In this document: positions 7,952 through 17,110 of the stretch, piece after piece | Layout of the letters: every line of letters begins with the position of its first letter | Position numbering within the stretch: the first letter of the stretch is position 1 | DNA from: a bacterium | Lineage (GTDB): Bacteria > Bdellovibrionota_C > UBA2361 > SZUA-149 | DNA: 39,271 bases | Assembly: GCA_030433295.1 (NCBI GenBank) | Contig: JAUIMJ010000005.1 | Coordinates: forward strand, 1-39,271 | Reading direction: 5' to 3' | Notes under the pieces: generated by a model | The model's database searches: none | What the model was told of the DNA's origin: nothing | Seen by the model: only the letters and a program-made list of their open reading frames with translations | Position numbers and translations under genes: made by a program

Positions 7952-10207
7952 CTATCCGGCATCCTCAGCAGGTAGCTCAACCTGATTCAACTTCTCAGGC
8001 TCTACTACGACAGTCTCTATTGATGTTGGTGGAGCACTGAGTACTTTCAGGGTGTATGTGCCCGGCAAGAGACTTAGAGCTTCCCCGTTGACCACCCCAG
8101 AGCTTACAAACTCGTCCTTTGCATTAAAGACCTCGTACGGAAGGCGAACTGCTTCTTCCAGACTTCTCTTTAGTTGCTCAGAATTCTGAGCATCGAAGTA
8201 GGTACCTTTTCCAATACGCGCCCAGGACCGAAAGGTTTCCTTCAGCATGTACTCATCGATGGCGAAACCAACAATATTCACGGTCGTATCAAATCCTGAC
8301 TCAGCTAGTTTCTTGATTGCGGCTTCCGGGTCCCCATCACAGGTCTCCTCACCATCTGTAACAAGAATCACGACACGCTTACCCTCGGCTGACTCCATAT
8401 CCTGCTGGACGAGTTCCAGAGATTTGGCAATCGGAGTCTTGGCGAAGTTCATCGCCACAACACCATCGACGGTCTTCCCTGCAGCACTTTTTTTAAGGGG
8501 CGAAAGGGGAATCTCGAGATCCGTTCTACAGGAGTCCTTCTCCTTATGTCCGAAAACCCGCATAGCAAAGGGCGTTCCTTCAGGTAAGGACCCTTTAATA
8601 AGCTGCTGCACAGCGTCCTTGGCGACTTCAATACGTCGCTGCTTTCCCTGATCTCGCTTCAGCATACTTCCTGAGGCATCTAAAATCAGAGCCACGTTCA
8701 TCTTCTGTGCACCCAGGCCAGAGCCCGACTCCCCGGCCTCTGCTGAGACAACACGAAGCGAACCGGGAACCTTTGAAGGCACAATGACGATAGGTCTGCT
8801 GGCCAAAACGCGTTTCTTGCCACCCGTGATATACCTCACTTCATAATTGCCTGCCTCTTTGGGAGTGTTGATCTTAAGTGTTTTCCCTCGTCTGACATAG
8901 GCGTAGCTCTCACTAATCGGTTCATCGTCTCCCGCTTTCTGGAGCGCAATGTAATCGTTGCTGTTCCCGGGCCCTTCCCAGCTAACGGAGATCACATCTC
9001 TGGCGGCGGCTTCGTCCGGCGCCGTTACGGATGCGCTCACCGGGACAACTTTTATCGGACGCGAGCCAAGCGTTAATCGTTTTTGACCGCTGAGGTAGCG
9101 GATTTCGTAGTCACCGGATTTCTCAGGTGCAGTTAATGAAAGCTTGTTGAGTTTGCGCGGCCCAAATTTCGATCGCGTGTAGGTGTAATCACCGTACTTC
9201 CCTTCATCCGCTCCGGCCTCCACGATAGTTATGAAATCTTTAGGATTGTCAGGGCCGGTCCACTCGACAAAAAACGAAGAGCCCTCAGAAACACTCTCAT
9301 CAGCTGTCAGAGTTGCATCGGTACCACCGACAACAATTGGTGCAGAGCCCAGCGTGTATCTTTTACTTCCGCTTAGATATCGAACTTCATACGAACCAGG
9401 AAGATCGGGAGCAGTTAACTTCATCGGCTTTCGCGGCGTTACGTTTCTCACGTATGCGTAGGGGCCGTATTTCCCCTCCTCAGCGTCGGCCTCAACTATG
9501 GTGATAAAATCCTTGTCATTGCGCGGTCCCTCAAAGCTCACCTCGAAGGAGGTACCAGCCTCGATCTTTTCCGGAACCGTAACTGATGCCAGGACCTCTT
9601 TCACGGTAATCGGCTCACTGGCTAGCGTCAGCCTTTCACCACCAAGAAGGTAACGCACCTCGTACTCGCCCGGATCCTCGGGTGCAACGAGTGTCATGCG
9701 CTTTTTCCGCGCATACTTGGGCTTTCCGGGGTAGGCATAGCCAGGGCCATAGGACCCCTCTTTTGCATCCTTCTTTACGATGGTGATGAAGTCTTTCGGA
9801 TATTCGGGGCCCTGCCACTCGATATCGACCTTGGCCCCCGCTACTACCTCCTTCGGCGCAGTGAGTTGAGCCGATACGGGAGTAACCTCTAAGTCAGCTT
9901 TGGCCATTGTGGGATATCCACGGTCCCCTTTGAGGAAACGCAATTCGTATTTACCCACCTGAGCAGGTACGCGAATTTTTATAGAAGTCTTTCCCTTTGT
10001 GTACACGTAACCGGGTGAGTATTTCCCCTCGCGTGCATCGGGCGAAACAATCGTCACAAAATCTTTTCCGCTCTCTTCCCCGCTTACCGTGACTTCGATT
10101 TCAGAAGCCGCAGGCGCGGAAGCTACGCTCTGGATACTTGATTCGGCATGTGCCAGCGAAGCACACAGCAGGAACGCCAGCAAAGTGAACAGAGATTCTC
10201 TTTTCAT
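7952..10207 (-). CDS. Secreted VWA-domain protein with five Ig-like repeats
   Basis: 751-aa exported protein. Residues 1-21 form a signal peptide ending AHA. Five tandem repeats of about 75-90 residues follow (about 36-108, 112-202, 206-293, 297-386, 390-476). Each contains a variant of GPxxxKDFITIV, an EGKYGxYAY-like strand and GxYEVRYLxGxKRxTL, consistent with beta-sandwich modules. A von Willebrand A domain spans about 503-690 with a complete MIDAS: DASGS (510-514), Thr591 and Asp618 in VTDGEE. A short beta-rich tail follows. VWA domains of this kind bind ligands through a divalent metal. A strong GGAGG lies 7 bases before ATG 10207. It is the first gene of the operon with the peptidase, ligase and glycosyltransferase. 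Likely a surface or periplasmic binding protein. Confidence 0.9.
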   Translation of the reverse strand: MKRESLFTLLAFLLCASLAHAESSIQSVASAPAASEIEVTVSGEESGKDFVTIVSPDAREGKYSPGYVYTKGKTSIKIRVPAQVGKYELRFLKGDRGYPTMAKADLEVTPVSAQLTAPKEVVAGAKVDIEWQGPEYPKDFITIVKKDAKEGSYGPGYAYPGKPKYARKKRMTLVAPEDPGEYEVRYLLGGERLTLASEPITVKEVLASVTVPEKIEAGTSFEVSFEGPRNDKDFITIVEADAEEGKYGPYAYVRNVTPRKPMKLTAPDLPGSYEVRYLSGSKRYTLGSAPIVVGGTDATLTADESVSEGSSFFVEWTGPDNPKDFITIVEAGADEGKYGDYTYTRSKFGPRKLNKLSLTAPEKSGDYEIRYLSGQKRLTLGSRPIKVVPVSASVTAPDEAAARDVISVSWEGPGNSNDYIALQKAGDDEPISESYAYVRRGKTLKINTPKEAGNYEVRYITGGKKRVLASRPIVIVPSKVPGSLRVVSAEAGESGSGLGAQKMNVALILDASGSMLKRDQGKQRRIEVAKDAVQQLIKGSLPEGTPFAMRVFGHKEKDSCRTDLEIPLSPLKKSAAGKTVDGVVAMNFAKTPIAKSLELVQQDMESAEGKRVVILVTDGEETCDGDPEAAIKKLAESGFDTTVNIVGFAIDEYMLKETFRSWARIGKGTYFDAQNSEQLKRSLEEAVRLPYEVFNAKDEFVSSGVVNGEALSLLPGTYTLKVLSAPPTSIETVVVEPEKLNQVELPAEDAG

Positions 10208-10936: not shown

Positions 10937-11800
10937 CTACGCAGCTTTTGTCTTTGAGGAAGACAACTCAGTTTTTATCACTCTGCGCCTGCTTCTTCTC
11001 TTGGTGCGTCGACCAGCGCTTCCGCGTTTGCGCTCTGCTGGCTTACTTTCCTTCTCCTCAGCAGATGTCTGTTGTTCCCCGATGATATTTCTCAGTCGGG
11101 AAAGGGCACTCTTTTTCACTCGAGAGATATGGCAACGGCTATAGCCAAGCGTCTTGGCAATATCGACCAGTGCCTGTTCACCACCGAATGAGCGAAGAAT
11201 AATTTCTTTCTCCAAATCATCAAGCTGACGAACCGCCTGTCGACACTCCTCTATCTTCTCCTTGCGAATCACCGCATTCTCGGGCGTCTCAATATCAGTC
11301 TGACCGAAAACCAGGTGCTCCGGAGCATTACCCCAAAGGGCCTCGCTACTCACATAGCGCCATTCCGAAGTATCCGTTCCTGCAGTCTGTCCGAACGCCA
11401 GGAAGACATTGCTCGCCTGTGCCGCACGGGCAACCGAGCGAACCAAATGACCACGCAGATGATAGAAGTAAAAGGTCATGAACGAAGCACCACGCTCCGG
11501 GGAATATCGCTTGGCAGCCTCACAAAGAGCCAGGTCGACAATACTATCAACCTCATCGCCCGACATGCGCACTCTCCATCGGCGAAGAATACTTCTGGCT
11601 AACTTTCTGCCATTTTCCCGGTGATCTAAAATAAGCGATTCGATGTTCGCTTCGTTCTCTTGTTGCTCCTCTTCGGAAACAACTCTCAACTCAGGAGTCT
11701 TAGCGCTCCTTTTTTTTGACTTTCTCTTGGCTGACTTTCTCGTTGCACTCTTTTTCTGAACCTTAGCTTTTTCCTTAACGCTAACCACTTCTTGCTCCAT
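10937..11800 (-). CDS. Sigma-70-like factor with lysine/arginine-rich tails
   Basis: 287-aa protein with a sigma-70 region 2 (about residues 50-125, including DEVDSIVDLALCEAAKRYSP and ASFMTFYFYHLRGHLVRSVA) and a region 4 helix-turn-helix (about 190-240; LDDLEKEIILRSFGGEQALV, then YSRCHISRVKKSALSRLR). Region 3 is poorly conserved. Unusually, both ends are basic and low-complexity: KSATRKSAKRKSKKRSAK near the N terminus and RKRGSAGRRTKRRSRRR near the C terminus, like histone-type tails that contact DNA. ATG 11800 is chosen, with GGAG about 10 bases upstream. ATG 11824 and GTG 11872 are in frame and possible. It is divergent from the membrane-anchored sigma gene and close to type III export genes, so it may control them. 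Confidence 0.75.
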   Translation of the reverse strand: MEQEVVSVKEKAKVQKKSATRKSAKRKSKKRSAKTPELRVVSEEEQQENEANIESLILDHRENGRKLARSILRRWRVRMSGDEVDSIVDLALCEAAKRYSPERGASFMTFYFYHLRGHLVRSVARAAQASNVFLAFGQTAGTDTSEWRYVSSEALWGNAPEHLVFGQTDIETPENAVIRKEKIEECRQAVRQLDDLEKEIILRSFGGEQALVDIAKTLGYSRCHISRVKKSALSRLRNIIGEQQTSAEEKESKPAERKRGSAGRRTKRRSRRRVIKTELSSSKTKAA

Positions 11801-12020
11801 GCTTCCCCAGCTCCGCTTAAACATAACCGCACAGATCCGTTGCCTCGGATCGGCATATTCCCTGTCAACCACGCCTTTCGCCGCGGTATGCGCCCTAGTA
11901 ACTCAGGCGCCCAATGTGATGTATTTGACCAACAACACTCACTATTCAGCCCCCCGAAGCATTACACTTCTGCAAAAAATCTAAGTATCTATAAACACTA
12001 GCTTTTAATAGAGGGCCGCT
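11801..12020. promoter_or_regulatory. Divergent promoter region between two sigma genes
   Basis: The space between divergent sigma genes (10937-11800 and 12227-13132) must hold promoters for both. The segment near 11970-12000 is AT-rich (AAAAAATCTAAG, then TATCTATAAACACTAG), but no pair of -35/-10 boxes at standard spacing could be assigned with confidence. Confidence 0.35.
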
Positions 12021-12226: not shown

Positions 12227-13132
12227 ATGACGACCAGCGAAGAAACCACCGCTGAACACACTCCAGGTAGCGAGGAGTTTGTTGCTAAACTCGTCGAGGA
12301 AAACATGGGTTGGGCGACGAGTATCGCAAAATCCGTTGCTCGGGCCTGGAATATGGACTGGCAGCTGGATGGTCTCGACGGCGGAGCCTATGAAGGACTC
12401 CTGTTTTGTGCCAGACGTTTTGACCCCGCCCGAGGAGTTCCATTTCGCGGGTATGCGCGACGCCGTATTCACGAGGCGTGCACCGAGGAAGCAAGGAAAT
12501 CAAAGTCCTGGCAGCGCGGCACGGGCGCAAACACTCAAGTCGAGCAGGATGCCCGAGAATTGAGTGCCAAGTTATTTAATGTTTTCCCTGAACTTCGCAG
12601 CGGATATCTGCCGAGCAATGACTCAAGTGGTGGCGACCCCGTTCGCAGCTCCGTTCGTCAATTGCTGACCAGCGCGAGCCTGATGGCTGCCTTTGAAGAA
12701 AGCGGCAGCGAAAATCCAGAAATTGCGTTCGAATACAAACAACTCATCGGAGTCCTCGCGGAACTAGAACCCGTGCATCAGGAAATTCTTTACGCGGTGT
12801 ACTACAAAGGCCAGTCGATGAGAAAACTGGCGGAGGAATGGAAGATCGACGACCTCTCGGTCATCCGTGAACACAAAGAAATACTGCGATTCTTATCTGC
12901 AAGAATAGAAGCTCCAAATTCAAGGGCGGGATTGCGAAAGCTTAAAATCAGACGAGGACTTCGAACCGTTGCGCAGCAGCTTAGGAAAGCTCAGCATGAA
13001 GGGTCATTTAGTAAGTTCCTTTCTGCTGCCATTATTCTTCTCATCCTTACTGCCTTATTCTCAGTTACCGCTCCGCTCAATCAGCATATGGCAGCAAACT
13101 CAACAGAAACCTCGCGAGGCATTCTATGGTAA
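12227..13132 (+). CDS. Membrane-anchored sigma-70-like protein
   Basis: 301-aa protein. Residues about 20-95 match sigma-70 region 2 (GGAYEGLLFCARRFDPARGV, then FRGYARRRIHEA). Residues about 172-225 form a region 4-like helix-turn-helix (LEPVHQEILYAVYYKGQSMR, then IREHKEILRFL). The linker between them is not recognisable as region 3. The C terminus has one strong transmembrane helix (about 265-284, FLSAAIILLILTALF) after a basic stretch, predicting a cytoplasmic sigma body and a 17-residue periplasmic tail. Sigma factors are normally soluble, so this tether is notable. AAGGA lies 11 bases before ATG 12227. The stop overlaps the next gene (ATGGTAA), indicating coupling. Confidence 0.75.
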   Translation: MTTSEETTAEHTPGSEEFVAKLVEENMGWATSIAKSVARAWNMDWQLDGLDGGAYEGLLFCARRFDPARGVPFRGYARRRIHEACTEEARKSKSWQRGTGANTQVEQDARELSAKLFNVFPELRSGYLPSNDSSGGDPVRSSVRQLLTSASLMAAFEESGSENPEIAFEYKQLIGVLAELEPVHQEILYAVYYKGQSMRKLAEEWKIDDLSVIREHKEILRFLSARIEAPNSRAGLRKLKIRRGLRTVAQQLRKAQHEGSFSKFLSAAIILLILTALFSVTAPLNQHMAANSTETSRGILW

Positions 13133-13446
13133 AGAAAATCCAAGGCAAGAAAACCGGACGCACCAGCGGCACCTCACCGGTGCAGGCGACAAAAACCGTA
13201 GAGAGCTCCAAAGTTGGCCAGGTCGATCAGGTAAAGGGCGGTGAGGCCACTGACCGTGCAGGGAGTGTGGGCACGGCCGGCACACCAATTACCCCGGAAC
13301 TTCGCGAACAATTGTTCCAGATGATCGATGAAGAAGCGGACAAACTCTTTGGTGATGATAATGAGGCCGCTGAGAAGAGAAAGAAGACGGTCAAGGGTGC
13401 AGTTAAAATGGCACTGGAGTCAGGGGTTCTACCGGAAGAGGAATAA
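13126..13446 (+). CDS. Small protein coupled to the membrane-anchored sigma
   Basis: 106-aa protein whose ATG lies 7 bases inside the end of the sigma-like gene. The first 50 residues are low-complexity and rich in Thr, Ser, Gly, Val and Lys, probably disordered. The second half (PITPELREQLFQMIDEEADK, then KKTVKGAVKMALESG) is predicted helical. This disordered-then-helical plan resembles the FlgM anti-sigma factor and some type III export substrates or chaperones, but there is no sequence match I can claim. By position it could be a regulator or ligand of the upstream sigma-like protein. It is convergent with the TPR gene, 27 bases away. Confidence 0.7.
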   Translation: MVKKIQGKKTGRTSGTSPVQATKTVESSKVGQVDQVKGGEATDRAGSVGTAGTPITPELREQLFQMIDEEADKLFGDDNEAAEKRKKTVKGAVKMALESGVLPEEE

Positions 13447-13473: not shown

Positions 13474-13890
13474 TTATCCTGCCACTCGACAACGCAGAAC
13501 GAGTGCCTCGAACAGGCGTTGCTGATCGGGATCGATCATCTGCAAACGATCCGGTTCATTTGATATCTCTGCCAGAATAGATTGCGCCCGGGACATCTCT
13601 TTCATCGCAACAAAGGCTGCGCAAAGTCCCAACTTAGCCAGAACCGGGTAATTTCCTATCTGCAGAGCCTGACGAAAATGAGTGGTTGCTTCCTGATACA
13701 ATCCTCGCTCCAACTTTACGAGGCCAAGCCCAATCCGACATGGGGTTCGCTCGCCGTCAACCACAGCAAGTCCGGAAAAAATCCGCTCTGCAGGCGCAAA
13801 GTATCCCATCTCGAAATAGAGGCGACCCAGTTCAAAAATCGCAACCAACTCCTCATTTGAGTATTCACTTACCACGAGACCATTCCCCAA
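13474..13890 (-). CDS. TPR protein, possible type III secretion chaperone
   Basis: 138-aa all-helical protein with about three tetratricopeptide-like repeats: ELGRLYFEMGYFAPAERIFS, GLVKLERGLYQEATTHFRQA and GLCAAFVAMKEMSRAQSILA. Its size and repeat plan resemble LcrH/SycD- or SctG-type type III secretion chaperones, and it is the last gene of the sctRSTU operon, supporting that idea. The frame opens at TTG 13890, 6 bases after the upstream stop. GTG 13875 is an alternative with GGGGA 8 bases upstream. Confidence 0.75.
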   Translation of the reverse strand: MGNGLVVSEYSNEELVAIFELGRLYFEMGYFAPAERIFSGLAVVDGERTPCRIGLGLVKLERGLYQEATTHFRQALQIGNYPVLAKLGLCAAFVAMKEMSRAQSILAEISNEPDRLQMIDPDQQRLFEALVLRCRVAG

Positions 13891-13896
13891 ATAGGA

Positions 13897-14211
13897 TCAC
13901 TCTTTATCCAGGCCCACAGTCAGCCACTGCACTACCTGAGAAAGCATTGACTCCTCGGCCGCACGCCTATACTGCGCCTCTGAATCAGCCAGATCGGCGA
14001 CATTCTCAGCACTCTGCAAATCGAGCAGTCGACGCTCAAGCTGATCTCCCAATCGGGCCAGATCAGAAACCTCACCAGCCGAAGGAAGCAGAACGGCGAG
14101 GGGCATAACCGGTAACCTGCTTCGCTTCGCTGCTGCCTCATTTCGCGCAGAGCTTCGAGCTGGCGGGGCCGTCCCTTGTCGAGCCGCTGGTATATTTTCT
14201 TCGTCACTCAT
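13897..14211 (-). CDS. Unrecognised 104-aa protein in type III export operon
   Basis: 104-aa protein with a Pro/Ala/Arg-rich N-terminal third (probably disordered, about residues 1-33) and a helical remainder (EVSDLARLGDQLERRLLDLQ, then SEAQYRRAAEESMLSQVVQW). No family was recognised. Its size and mostly helical C-terminal half would suit a small type III needle, rod or gatekeeper-associated protein, but no diagnostic motif is present. It lies 7 bases after the 42-codon frame and 6 bases before the TPR gene, so it belongs to the operon. Confidence 0.65.
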   Translation of the reverse strand: MSDEENIPAARQGTAPPARSSARNEAAAKRSRLPVMPLAVLLPSAGEVSDLARLGDQLERRLLDLQSAENVADLADSEAQYRRAAEESMLSQVVQWLTVGLDKE

Positions 14212-14218
14212 CGTATTT

Positions 14219-14347
14219 TCATAGCATTAATGGGCGTGTCAAAAAACTATCGTTTTTCCTCAGGCCCGAAAGGGTTCGCTTCAGCAACGCAAGTTGAACG
14301 CTTTGCTCAAGCCCTTTGTCGGCGTTCGGAACAATGAGAAGACTCAT
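14219..14347 (-). CDS. Possible 42-aa protein after truncated sctU
   Basis: Frame from ATG 14347, 8 bases after the sctU stop, ending 7 bases before the next gene. It begins MSLLIVPNADKGLEQSVQLA and ends LTRPLML. GGAG lies only one base before the ATG, which is poor spacing. It occupies the place where the SctU cytoplasmic domain would be expected, but lacks NPTH and the rest of that domain. It could be a tiny operon gene or non-coding. Confidence 0.4.
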   Translation of the reverse strand: MSLLIVPNADKGLEQSVQLALLKRTLSGLRKNDSFLTRPLML

Positions 14348-14355
14348 TCTCCGAC

Positions 14356-15138
14356 CTATGACTCCTCGAGAAGCTCCCGCCTGCTGGCATCGAAATCGCC
14401 ACTGGTTTCCATCTCTCGATACTCCTCTTCCAACTCACTGCGCGTCATACGCTGCGCACGATGAAAAGAGAAGTAATCAATCAGATAACAGCCCAGTCCC
14501 AGAAAAAAGAGCATGAACAGCAGGCTCATGAAGAAAAAGCGGGCCCAGGACGTGACAAACAGCAGCGGGGTCTCGAATGCCTTTTCTAACGCCACTCTAC
14601 TGATATCATCACTCAGCCCCAGGGCCGACAGGGATCCTACGACCTGCTGATTGTAGTCGTAGAACAGCTGGGTCAGAAACCAAGAAAGAAACAAGAGAAC
14701 CACGGCAATCAGAAGGATACTGCGACCTGCCCTTTTCAGTCCTGCTACCGGCGCAAAAGAAAAGCTCGGGGCCATTCTCCCAAGACTTGGAACTGCCTGC
14801 TTAACTACGATTAGAAAACGCGTCTGCAGGAGTCCGAAGAGTGCAACTGCCAGTGCCGTGCATCCGCAGATAGCGAGCACACCGACGGCAAGAAACATCT
14901 GAACCCGCTCGAACAACTTGGGTAGATCAGGACTGGCTACAGAACGCTTTCGCACAAGCTCTGCCGCAAATAACTCAAAATCCGGCAGACAAACAGCAAG
15001 AGCAATCGACACCCCCATCCCGACTCCAATAAAGGCAGCAAAGAGCAGAACCTCTTTGCTTTGCGGCACGATGCCCTCTGAGCGAAGACGCTCAAGCTTC
15101 AGTTCCGTAGCCGGAAATCTTTTTGCTTCATCGCTCAT
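14356..15138 (-). CDS. sctU: SctU/FlhB-type export protein lacking the cytoplasmic domain
   Basis: 260-aa homologue of SctU/FlhB. The N-terminal KRFPATELKLERLRSEGIVP and four hydrophobic segments fit the family's membrane part. The cytoplasmic linker (RAQRMTRSELEEEYREMETS) matches the normal sequence just after the fourth helix. The protein then ends at ...RRELLEES, about 10-15 residues before the position of the NPTH autocleavage site. Family members are usually about 340-370 aa and carry a roughly 90-residue C-terminal domain that switches substrate class. None of the three minus-strand frames after the stop encodes NPTH. It overlaps sctT by 11 bases. Function as part of the export gate is likely; substrate switching must differ or be supplied elsewhere. 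Confidence 0.85.
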   Translation of the reverse strand: MSDEAKRFPATELKLERLRSEGIVPQSKEVLLFAAFIGVGMGVSIALAVCLPDFELFAAELVRKRSVASPDLPKLFERVQMFLAVGVLAICGCTALAVALFGLLQTRFLIVVKQAVPSLGRMAPSFSFAPVAGLKRAGRSILLIAVVLLFLSWFLTQLFYDYNQQVVGSLSALGLSDDISRVALEKAFETPLLFVTSWARFFFMSLLFMLFFLGLGCYLIDYFSFHRAQRMTRSELEEEYREMETSGDFDASRRELLEES

Positions 15139-15970
15139 GTACGTGGAAGAGATTCGTTATGGTTTTCGATGCCTGGGGACCATTTGATGAGACGAAGAAT
15201 GCCCCGAGCTGCTCACTGAAAGGATACAGACTCAACACTAAAAACAAACTGAGCAAGGGTATTCGCAGGCCCTTAAAAAACCAATGGGCTTCTAGTTCTC
15301 GAAAAACTCTGTAGGAAAAAATACAGCTCAGATCACAAACAAAAAACAAGAGTGCAAGTGGTAGGAACAGATAGGTAGCAAGCATCAAAGCCGTAGCGCC
15401 AGCTCTCAATACGACTTCGCATACCGCAACAAATCCTCCTGCGGGAAGCTCCGTGAATCCCAGAGGAAGACTGGCGTAGGAGTCGGCAACCTGAGCAAAA
15501 ACAGTTGCGTATGCTCCTGAGCCTAGAATCAGCGAAAAACAAATCAGCACGGGAAGGACGGACAATTGTGGGTGGGGTCTGATTTCGACTCGAGTAAGGG
15601 GAAACCCCGTTCTCTGTATAATGGATGCGCTGAGCATGTGCCCAAAGATCGAGGCCAGCAATAGCGAAGCGCCAAATGAAATTCCAAGTAGTACACCAAT
15701 TCCCGACTCAAGGAGTATCGCTGTATAGGGAAGAAAAGAACCCCGAACAATTTCGCTTACACTAGAATCCAGACCAACCAGCAGACCTCCGAATCCAATA
15801 TCAATGGTTTTGAAAGGGGTGCACATCAGAGCCGCTGACCACACCGCAACCTTCGCGATACCGGGTAGCGAGCCGCGCGGCACGAGAAAGAAAGCAATAG
15901 TCAGGCCGATGGCACGAAAGCCGGAAGCGGATACTTCATGGAGGGTCGCTGCATCCAGAGTCCAATCCAT
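15128..15970 (-). CDS. sctT: SctT/FliR-type export-gate protein
   Basis: 280-aa polytopic membrane protein of the SctT/FliR family, the single-copy subunit that closes the SctR5-SctS4-SctT1 export pore in the inner membrane. About seven hydrophobic segments are visible with family-type loops, such as ESGIGVLLGISFGASLLLAS and GATALMLATYLFLPLALLFF. ATG 15970 is preferred, with GGTGA 5 bases upstream. GTG 15979, three codons earlier, overlaps the sctS stop (GTGA) and is an alternative. Order sctR-S-T-U. Confidence 0.88.
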   Translation of the reverse strand: MDWTLDAATLHEVSASGFRAIGLTIAFFLVPRGSLPGIAKVAVWSAALMCTPFKTIDIGFGGLLVGLDSSVSEIVRGSFLPYTAILLESGIGVLLGISFGASLLLASIFGHMLSASIIQRTGFPLTRVEIRPHPQLSVLPVLICFSLILGSGAYATVFAQVADSYASLPLGFTELPAGGFVAVCEVVLRAGATALMLATYLFLPLALLFFVCDLSCIFSYRVFRELEAHWFFKGLRIPLLSLFLVLSLYPFSEQLGAFFVSSNGPQASKTITNLFHVHER

Positions 15971-15975
15971 AAGAA

Positions 15976-16230
15976 TCACCGATAGAAGTCAGCGCCGCCC
16001 CAGACGCGAACGGTAAAATCCAGGATTTCCGAAGACAAATAGCCCGAGCTTATCCAGAGCAACAAGGCAAGACCCGCGGCTCGACCGAGAAACCCTATCG
16101 AGGGATCGTCTATCTGAGTTACGACTCGGAGGATCGCCGTAACACCTCCGCCGAGTGCAATGCTGCCAAGCAGGAGAAATCCGAGGTACGCAACCAACTG
16201 GAGTGCTGAAATCACTAAGGAAGGAGTCAT
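15976..16230 (-). CDS. sctS: SctS/FliQ-type export-gate protein
   Basis: 84-aa protein with two membrane helices (LVAYLGFLLLGSIALGGGVT and LGRAAGLALLLWISSGYL) separated by a short polar loop containing TQIDD, the plan of SctS/FliQ (usually 85-90 aa), which forms the lower ring of the export pore. GGAG lies 7 bases before ATG 16230. It directly precedes sctT. Confidence 0.88.
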   Translation of the reverse strand: MTPSLVISALQLVAYLGFLLLGSIALGGGVTAILRVVTQIDDPSIGFLGRAAGLALLLWISSGYLSSEILDFTVRVWGGADFYR

Positions 16231-16315: not shown

Positions 16316-17110
16316 TCACGAGTACGATGCGACCAAATTCGTAGTAATGATTGCCCAACCATCGACCATGACAAATAGCAGTACCTTGAATGGAAACGAT
16401 ACCAGCGCGCTGTTGAGGTGCTCTGAGCCCAGTGCAGCCAACACACTGGCAACCAGTAAATCGATAACGAGAAACGGAAGGAATAAACTAAGTCCTGTCG
16501 CGAAGGCCTCTTTTAATTCAGATACCATGAACGCCGGAGCAAGCACGCGCCACGAATCTTCTGCCTCTTGTACCTCCGTACCCTTGCCACGATTGGCTAT
16601 CTCAAGGAATCGCTTGCGATCCTCTTCCTCCGCATGCCGCTCAACAAACTGCTTCCACTCGAGAAGGCCCGCATTAAGCGCTCTGGCACGCAGCTGATCA
16701 TCGACCACACCGCTCCTCAATACACGGTCCATACTTTCGCAGGACTGGGAAATAGTTGGCCACATAACAAAAAACGATAAGACGAGGGCTAAGCCCCCCG
16801 TAATAAGTGTAGATGGCAGGCTATCAACGCCAAAGCCGATGCGCACAATCCCTAAGACGGTGGCGAGCTTGATGTAGGAGCTCAACACCAGAACCAGAAG
16901 GAACAAAAAGAAAACAGAGAATGCAGACAGACCAAGTTGTCCGATAGTTGAGATGGGATCCACGCGTACGAATCTCAGGCTATGATTTATGTTATCCAGA
17001 TAAGGAGGAGGATAGTACGGGCACACCAATTCTATCAAGAAGGATCGAATACCAGAGAAAGAAATCCCCAAGGTATCCTTCCGAGAGCGAGTACGTCGCT
17101 TCGGATTCAT
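16316..17110 (-). CDS. sctR: SctR/FliP-type export-gate protein
   Basis: 264-aa membrane protein of the SctR/FliP family, which forms the pentameric core of the type III export pore. Matches include SSYIKLATVLGIVRIGFGVD, the SFFVMWPTISQ segment, a polar mid-region of about 80 residues, and the C-terminal family block LFLPFLVIDLLVASVLAALG followed by SFPFKVLLFVMVDGW. It is slightly longer than usual because of a polar N-terminal extension (MNPKRRTRSRKD). ATG 17110 has only a weak ribosome site, and no later ATG precedes the conserved region. First gene of the export operon, 85 bases ahead of sctS. Confidence 0.9.
   Translation of the reverse strand: MNPKRRTRSRKDTLGISFSGIRSFLIELVCPYYPPPYLDNINHSLRFVRVDPISTIGQLGLSAFSVFFLFLLVLVLSSYIKLATVLGIVRIGFGVDSLPSTLITGGLALVLSFFVMWPTISQSCESMDRVLRSGVVDDQLRARALNAGLLEWKQFVERHAEEEDRKRFLEIANRGKGTEVQEAEDSWRVLAPAFMVSELKEAFATGLSLFLPFLVIDLLVASVLAALGSEHLNSALVSFPFKVLLFVMVDGWAIITTNLVASYS

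Follow-up and report, generated by a model that had tools for sequence, protein, structure and literature searches.

A short SctU without the NPTH switch domain, conserved across a bacterial class and linked to Tad pilus genes

The window analysed here is a stretch of 39,271 nucleotides, contig JAUIMJ010000005.1 of a draft genome from the Bdellovibrionota_C (GCA_030433295.1). It carries the genes sctR, sctS, sctT and sctU of a type III secretion system (T3SS), followed by a gene for a small protein and one for a TPR protein (Table 1). We call this system B, and its loci and its SctU type B, to keep it apart from a sister T3SS of the same genome, system A. The same six genes are common to the type-B loci, with two sigma factors and a 106-aa protein nearby, and the order sctU, small protein, TPR protein is kept in nearly all of them. 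The small protein, which we will call the hairpin protein, is conserved in 15 loci and has two helices in its AF2 model, 45-70 and 77-102. Foldseek found no significant match for it; YscE (2p58_A) came at rank 12 with a probability of 0.66 and an E-value of 2.8. It has no detectable relation to the protein of about 158 aa found at the same place in the Myxococcaceae.

Table 1. Features of the window around the short sctU, in order of position

Feature	Position	Strand	Remarks
751-aa protein	7952..10207		about five DFITIV...EGKYG..Y.Y repeats, then a von Willebrand A-like stretch (by sequence only)
second sigma-70 family factor, Sig1	10937..11872	minus	several relatives have a phmmer match beside a type-B locus
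sigma-70 family factor, Sig2	12227..13132	plus	phmmer matches adjoining type-B sctRSTU in 10 relatives
106-aa protein, family unassigned, partner gene of Sig2	13126..13446	plus	conserved next to Sig2 at type-B loci
TPR protein, candidate SctG/LcrH/CdsG-like chaperone	13474..13890	minus	LcrH_SycD E 5e-8 and CdsG E 7e-6, both below cut-off
small conserved protein after sctU (hairpin protein)	13897..14211	minus	104 aa; predicted helical hairpin, possibly an SctE/YscE-like co-chaperone
42-codon open frame	14219..14347	minus	in the gap after sctU; not a conserved gene
sctU, short form (type B)	14356..15138	minus	260 aa; membrane domain and start of linker; no NPTH, no C-terminal domain
sctT (FliR family)	15128..15979	minus	283 aa; PF01311 E 0.0016, below cut-off; conserved R-S-T-U position
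sctS (FliQ family)	15976..16230	minus	84 aa; PF01313 E 1.7e-6, over cut-off
sctR (FliP family)	16316..17110	minus	264 aa; PF00813 E 3e-49; aligned with 13 class relatives

Two details of these loci are worth recording on their own. Sig2 ends in a hydrophobic stretch that may span the membrane; this tail is found in the window and in two loci of the same order (L039 and L040), and not in other families. One relative (G038, L052:7412-12360) has an insert of about 5 kb between its type-B sctU and the hairpin gene, with pilin-like ORFs and an 883-aa protein.

A preliminary description of the locus claimed that the membrane half and linker of SctU are intact and that the cytoplasmic domain with NPTH is missing. 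The absence of this domain is confirmed. In a Pfam search, PF01312 matches residues 6-256 of the window protein with positions 3-235 of a profile of 335 (E 7e-20), and the matches to the NCBIfam SctU/FlhB models stop at 231-243 of about 341-348. We built a further FlhB HMM from 30 full-length proteins; NPTH occupies its positions 271-274. The window protein, whose C-terminal end is ...MTRSELEEEYREMETSGDFDASRRELLEES, aligns to this HMM up to 239 and has 14 residues beyond, and it stops about 30 residues ahead of the NPTH position. The four-helix N-terminal membrane domain is present (PF01312; long helices in the AF2 model, mean pLDDT 81), and the cytoplasmic domain with the N-PTH autocleavage site is absent. 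Of the linker, only the start is kept. Comparisons of the AF2 model using Foldseek and VIA-align return common helical matches only; FlhB (6s3l_K) is present among them, with Z 5.7 over 162 residues, and is not outstanding. Judged by its sequence, the window protein is a homologue of SctU but not the canonical SctU switch protein.

The missing domain is not hidden behind the gene. The gap between sctU and the next gene is 144 bp, which is too small for a domain of about 90 residues, so there is no C-domain concealed 3' of sctU, and a PF01312 search of the whole genome found none anywhere in the window. The range first given for the feature, 14219-15138, also takes in the 42-codon frame, which lies outside the sctU gene and was said to sit exactly where the domain should be. 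We reject this frame as a remnant or a replacement of the domain: in relatives sctU is followed by a gap of mostly 0-70 bp, in most of them too small to hold such a frame, so it is not conserved and we read it as chance. The hairpin protein was likewise considered as a hidden FlhB C-domain and rejected, since a comparison by hhalign gave a probability of 0.1 and the predicted fold is all-helical.

The short form of SctU is conserved across the whole bacterial class. A model of the window-type SctU has strong matches in 18 of the 45 class genomes, and several others hold copies that are divergent or in fragments. The C-domain is absent from every type-B copy with a readable C-terminus (22 of 22, from genomes across the class, with the window copy and the divergent ones included). 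The ends of these proteins lie at a conserved ...HRM(S/T)RxELExE... motif or just past it, in some cases inside it or a little ahead of it, and so around FlhB-HMM 218-250, compared with 271 for NPTH. Stop codons occur in some of the matches, at the true stop or directly after it, since the match runs on for a few codons. No relative has a full-length SctU at a window-type locus, which is what the preliminary description had named as a refuting result. We found no paper on an SctU without its C-domain in the open-access literature.

The genome that holds the window has five PF01312 loci: a full FlhB on contig C114, followed by flhA; a 280-aa SctU on C249, which stops immediately ahead of the NPTH position; the window SctU; and, on C173 and on C408, a C-domain standing alone. 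The pattern is seen again in 57 relatives. The system of the window is one of two non-flagellar T3SS that exist beside a flagellum in this class.

The sister system also has a short SctU, of another kind. The type-A locus is one run of sctR-S-T-U, the gene for a PAS/GAF histidine kinase and the gene for the C-domain, and sctU and the C-domain gene share a contig in at least 23 relatives. In the genome of the window the two are at L006:6848-7690 (C249) and L007:1609-1878 (C173), and the ends of these two contigs match successive portions of one histidine kinase in a relative. Type-A SctU ends at FlhB-HMM 269-272 in all 20 cases measured, and the C-domain proteins start at 274-276 in all 17 that were aligned (16 from system A plus the C408 copy), so the break between the two genes falls at the self-cleavage point of the canonical protein. 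It has the appearance of a genuine SctU made from two genes. One more peculiarity, seen in nearly all genomes of the class, is that the SctV of the second system (L087:10063-12078, on C77, and its homologues) is missing a piece from the middle of the FHIPEP profile, with a gap at about 403-454.

In three genomes of the same order (G004, G008 and G012) the type-B sctRSTU genes form the end of an operon that also holds Tad-pilus genes. The order is FHA-kinase-CpaE-CpaB-CpaF-TadC-TadB-sctV-kinase-FHA-FHA-sctJ-sctO-sctQ-sctR-S-T-U and then the TPR gene; the kinases are Ser/Thr kinases, and genes for Flp-type pilins lie between CpaE and CpaB. We read this operon on contig C51 of G004 and contig C7 of G008, each across two stretches of one contig, while contig C73 of G012 begins inside sctV. 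SctJ, FliJ/SctO, SctQ, SctT, and the FHA and Tad proteins were confirmed using Pfam and NCBIfam. In the genome of the window the front of the operon is on contig C78 (L088), which ends inside sctJ, and the back part is the window itself; the two are joined by homology, not by assembly. The core export and basal-body genes of a non-flagellar T3SS are present, with R, S, T and U in the window, V and J on C78, and O, Q and the full operon in the order-mates. Tad genes, Ser/Thr kinases, FHA proteins and the T3SS core lie on one strand in L088, and in L089, L090, L044 and L045 of relatives. In distant families the type-B sctRSTU genes and the Tad genes are not on the same stretch.

The SctV of the window-type system forms a single class-wide clade (100/100), apart from the SctV of the sister system, flagellar FlhA and the SctV of the Myxococcota, in a tree whose root is unknown. 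Three ATPases of the FliI/SctN type are encoded in the genome, which has three systems; one falls below the family cut-off, and none is linked to the window locus. A search for the needle subunit SctF using PF09392, run without a positive control, had no match in 42 genomes. No T3SS secretin exceeded the TIGR02516 cut-off in 20 genomes, where only generic secretin domains match.

How should the missing domain be explained? The class genomes are all drafts and the one with the window is in 425 contigs, and nothing else speaks for a sequencing or assembly error at the TAG. Since 22 class copies stop at or near the same place, such an error is excluded as the explanation, and with no C-domain in the downstream DNA we give it practically no weight. 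One could also see sctU as the remnant of a dying secretion system. The type-B proteins are shortened relative to the family and the others are only 17-32% identical to the window copy, as decay might leave them, but their open frames and gene order are kept in many families of the class, flagella-free genomes included, and SctV, SctJ, SctO, SctQ and SctR are all intact in the order-mates. We think decay very improbable. Another protein may have taken over switching, for example the hairpin or the TPR protein, whose conserved places behind sctU would fit such a role. However, the hairpin protein is unrelated to the C-domain in the profile comparison described above and is predicted to be all-helical. 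A similar TPR gene is also found 3' of a full-length SctU in the Myxococcaceae, so the TPR protein is not a replacement. The idea of a substitute switch seems to us a poor one, if better than decay.

A less remote alternative, which we still consider unlikely, is that the domain is supplied in trans by a stand-alone FlhB C-domain and switching is kept. The preliminary description left a choice between a split or alternative switch protein and a loss of switching. A split does exist in this genome, in the paralogous system A (C249 and C173), and a genome-wide search for separate C-domains finds two candidates, C173 and the FlhX-like C408, neither of them at the window locus. Split SctU is thus in use in these organisms, and the well-assembled genomes with system B all carry system A as well, which is compatible with supply by the system-A domain. 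The objection concerns how such a domain would dock. In known FlhB/SctU structures the strand before the cleavage site packs or pairs with the C-domain. Type-A SctU keeps this segment up to the cut, whereas in the FlhB HMM the entire segment ahead of NPTH is missing from type-B SctU, that last strand and most of the linker with it. No C-domain gene lies on the contigs with type-B sctU among the matches listed, and the C23-type loci of G009 have none either. In several genomes the FlhX-like gene sits on a flagellar contig, and it is missing from G008 and G029; these two lack flagellar FlhB, FlhA and FliK but retain both T3SS, and their single C-domain gene is that of system A. Because no checked contig has a C-domain gene and the docking strand is missing too, the evidence at the window locus favours loss over a split.

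We believe, then, that the system of the window is probably a T3SS export gate with an SctU that stably lacks the NPTH switch domain, a gate that opens, does not switch substrates and works with the Tad pilus of the same operon. What remains of SctU would be the portion that wraps around the SctRST channel and opens it, together with the first stretch of the linker. The gate would open and let through the substrates that SctV and the ATPase complex select, without a step from early to late ones. We propose that the machine can dispense with this step because it does not itself make a hook or needle of measured length; it would work with the pilus instead. We infer from the genes that the system secretes, that it does not switch and that the pilus is its partner. 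Some caution is due about a needleless reading, since the two genes after sctU have a YscE/YscG-like look, and in Yersinia the YscE/YscG pair chaperones the needle subunit. The window system may have a divergent needle-like subunit.

A broader statement can be made only tentatively. It may be that throughout the class a switch-less T3SS gate delivers into a Tad pilus of the same operon or is coupled with it, while the sister T3SS uses an SctU whose gene is divided exactly where autocleavage would occur, the part for the C-domain standing behind a sensor kinase gene; nature would then have two ways to do without SctU autocleavage.

The importance of this lies in what the missing domain does elsewhere. 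In flagella and injectisomes the C-domain of SctU, together with FliK/SctP, switches export from early to late substrates, and autocleavage of FlhB/SctU at NPTH is described as essential for the flagellar substrate switch and as a key regulator in injectisomes (PMC3708937, PMC3504009). The class described here offers natural counter-examples, one machine with an SctU that has no switch domain at all and another with an SctU that is made already cut. They make it possible to test which part of SctU serves gate opening and which serves only switching.

Compared with canonical YscU/FlhB, the window SctU shares the membrane domain, the linker motif (M-S/T-R-x-E-x-E-x-E) and the position after sctT, but it lacks NPTH, the autocleavage site and the cytoplasmic C-domain. 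The FlhX/YlqH-type domains (TIGR00789), of which C408 is one, show that the C-domain can be a gene of its own. Such domains normally accompany a full-length FlhB, and unlike that arrangement the window system has no such partner at its own locus.

The closest described system is the 'needleless' T3SS* of M. xanthus, which acts with the Tad-like Kil pilus at contact with prey (PMC12075869; PMC10849154; the 'Myxo' group of PMC3459982). Both have a T3SS core in which a needle and a T3SS-type secretin are undetected, here in the searches of 42 and 20 genomes given above, and both have a tie to a Tad pilus, here one of gene linkage alone. They also agree in the order R-S-T-U ... TPR, and the TPR protein of the window is related to the one at the same place in the Myxococcaceae T3SS* locus (30% identity, E 3e-8). 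The window-type SctV, however, falls in its own clade and not with that of T3SS* or other Myxococcota, again with the root unknown. SctU differs as well. Among eight myxobacterial and deltaproteobacterial genomes with a match, all 13 SctU/FlhB proteins with the membrane domain are full length, and complete loss of the domain is seen only in the window's class. In four of these eight genomes a C-domain gene stands directly behind one full-length SctU/FlhB. Two Myxococcaceae loci (L123:11759-13135 and L138:9865-11243) have NPDH in SctU instead of NPTH, with an extra stand-alone C-domain gene directly 3'; this suggests that T3SS of the needleless type may repeatedly lose the cleavage site or have it weakened. 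The co-occurrence of T3SS* and Tad has been described as restricted to the Cystobacterineae (PMC10849154). Here the Tad and T3SS genes stand in one operon in the order to which the window belongs, and this extends the association of T3SS with Tad beyond the myxobacteria.
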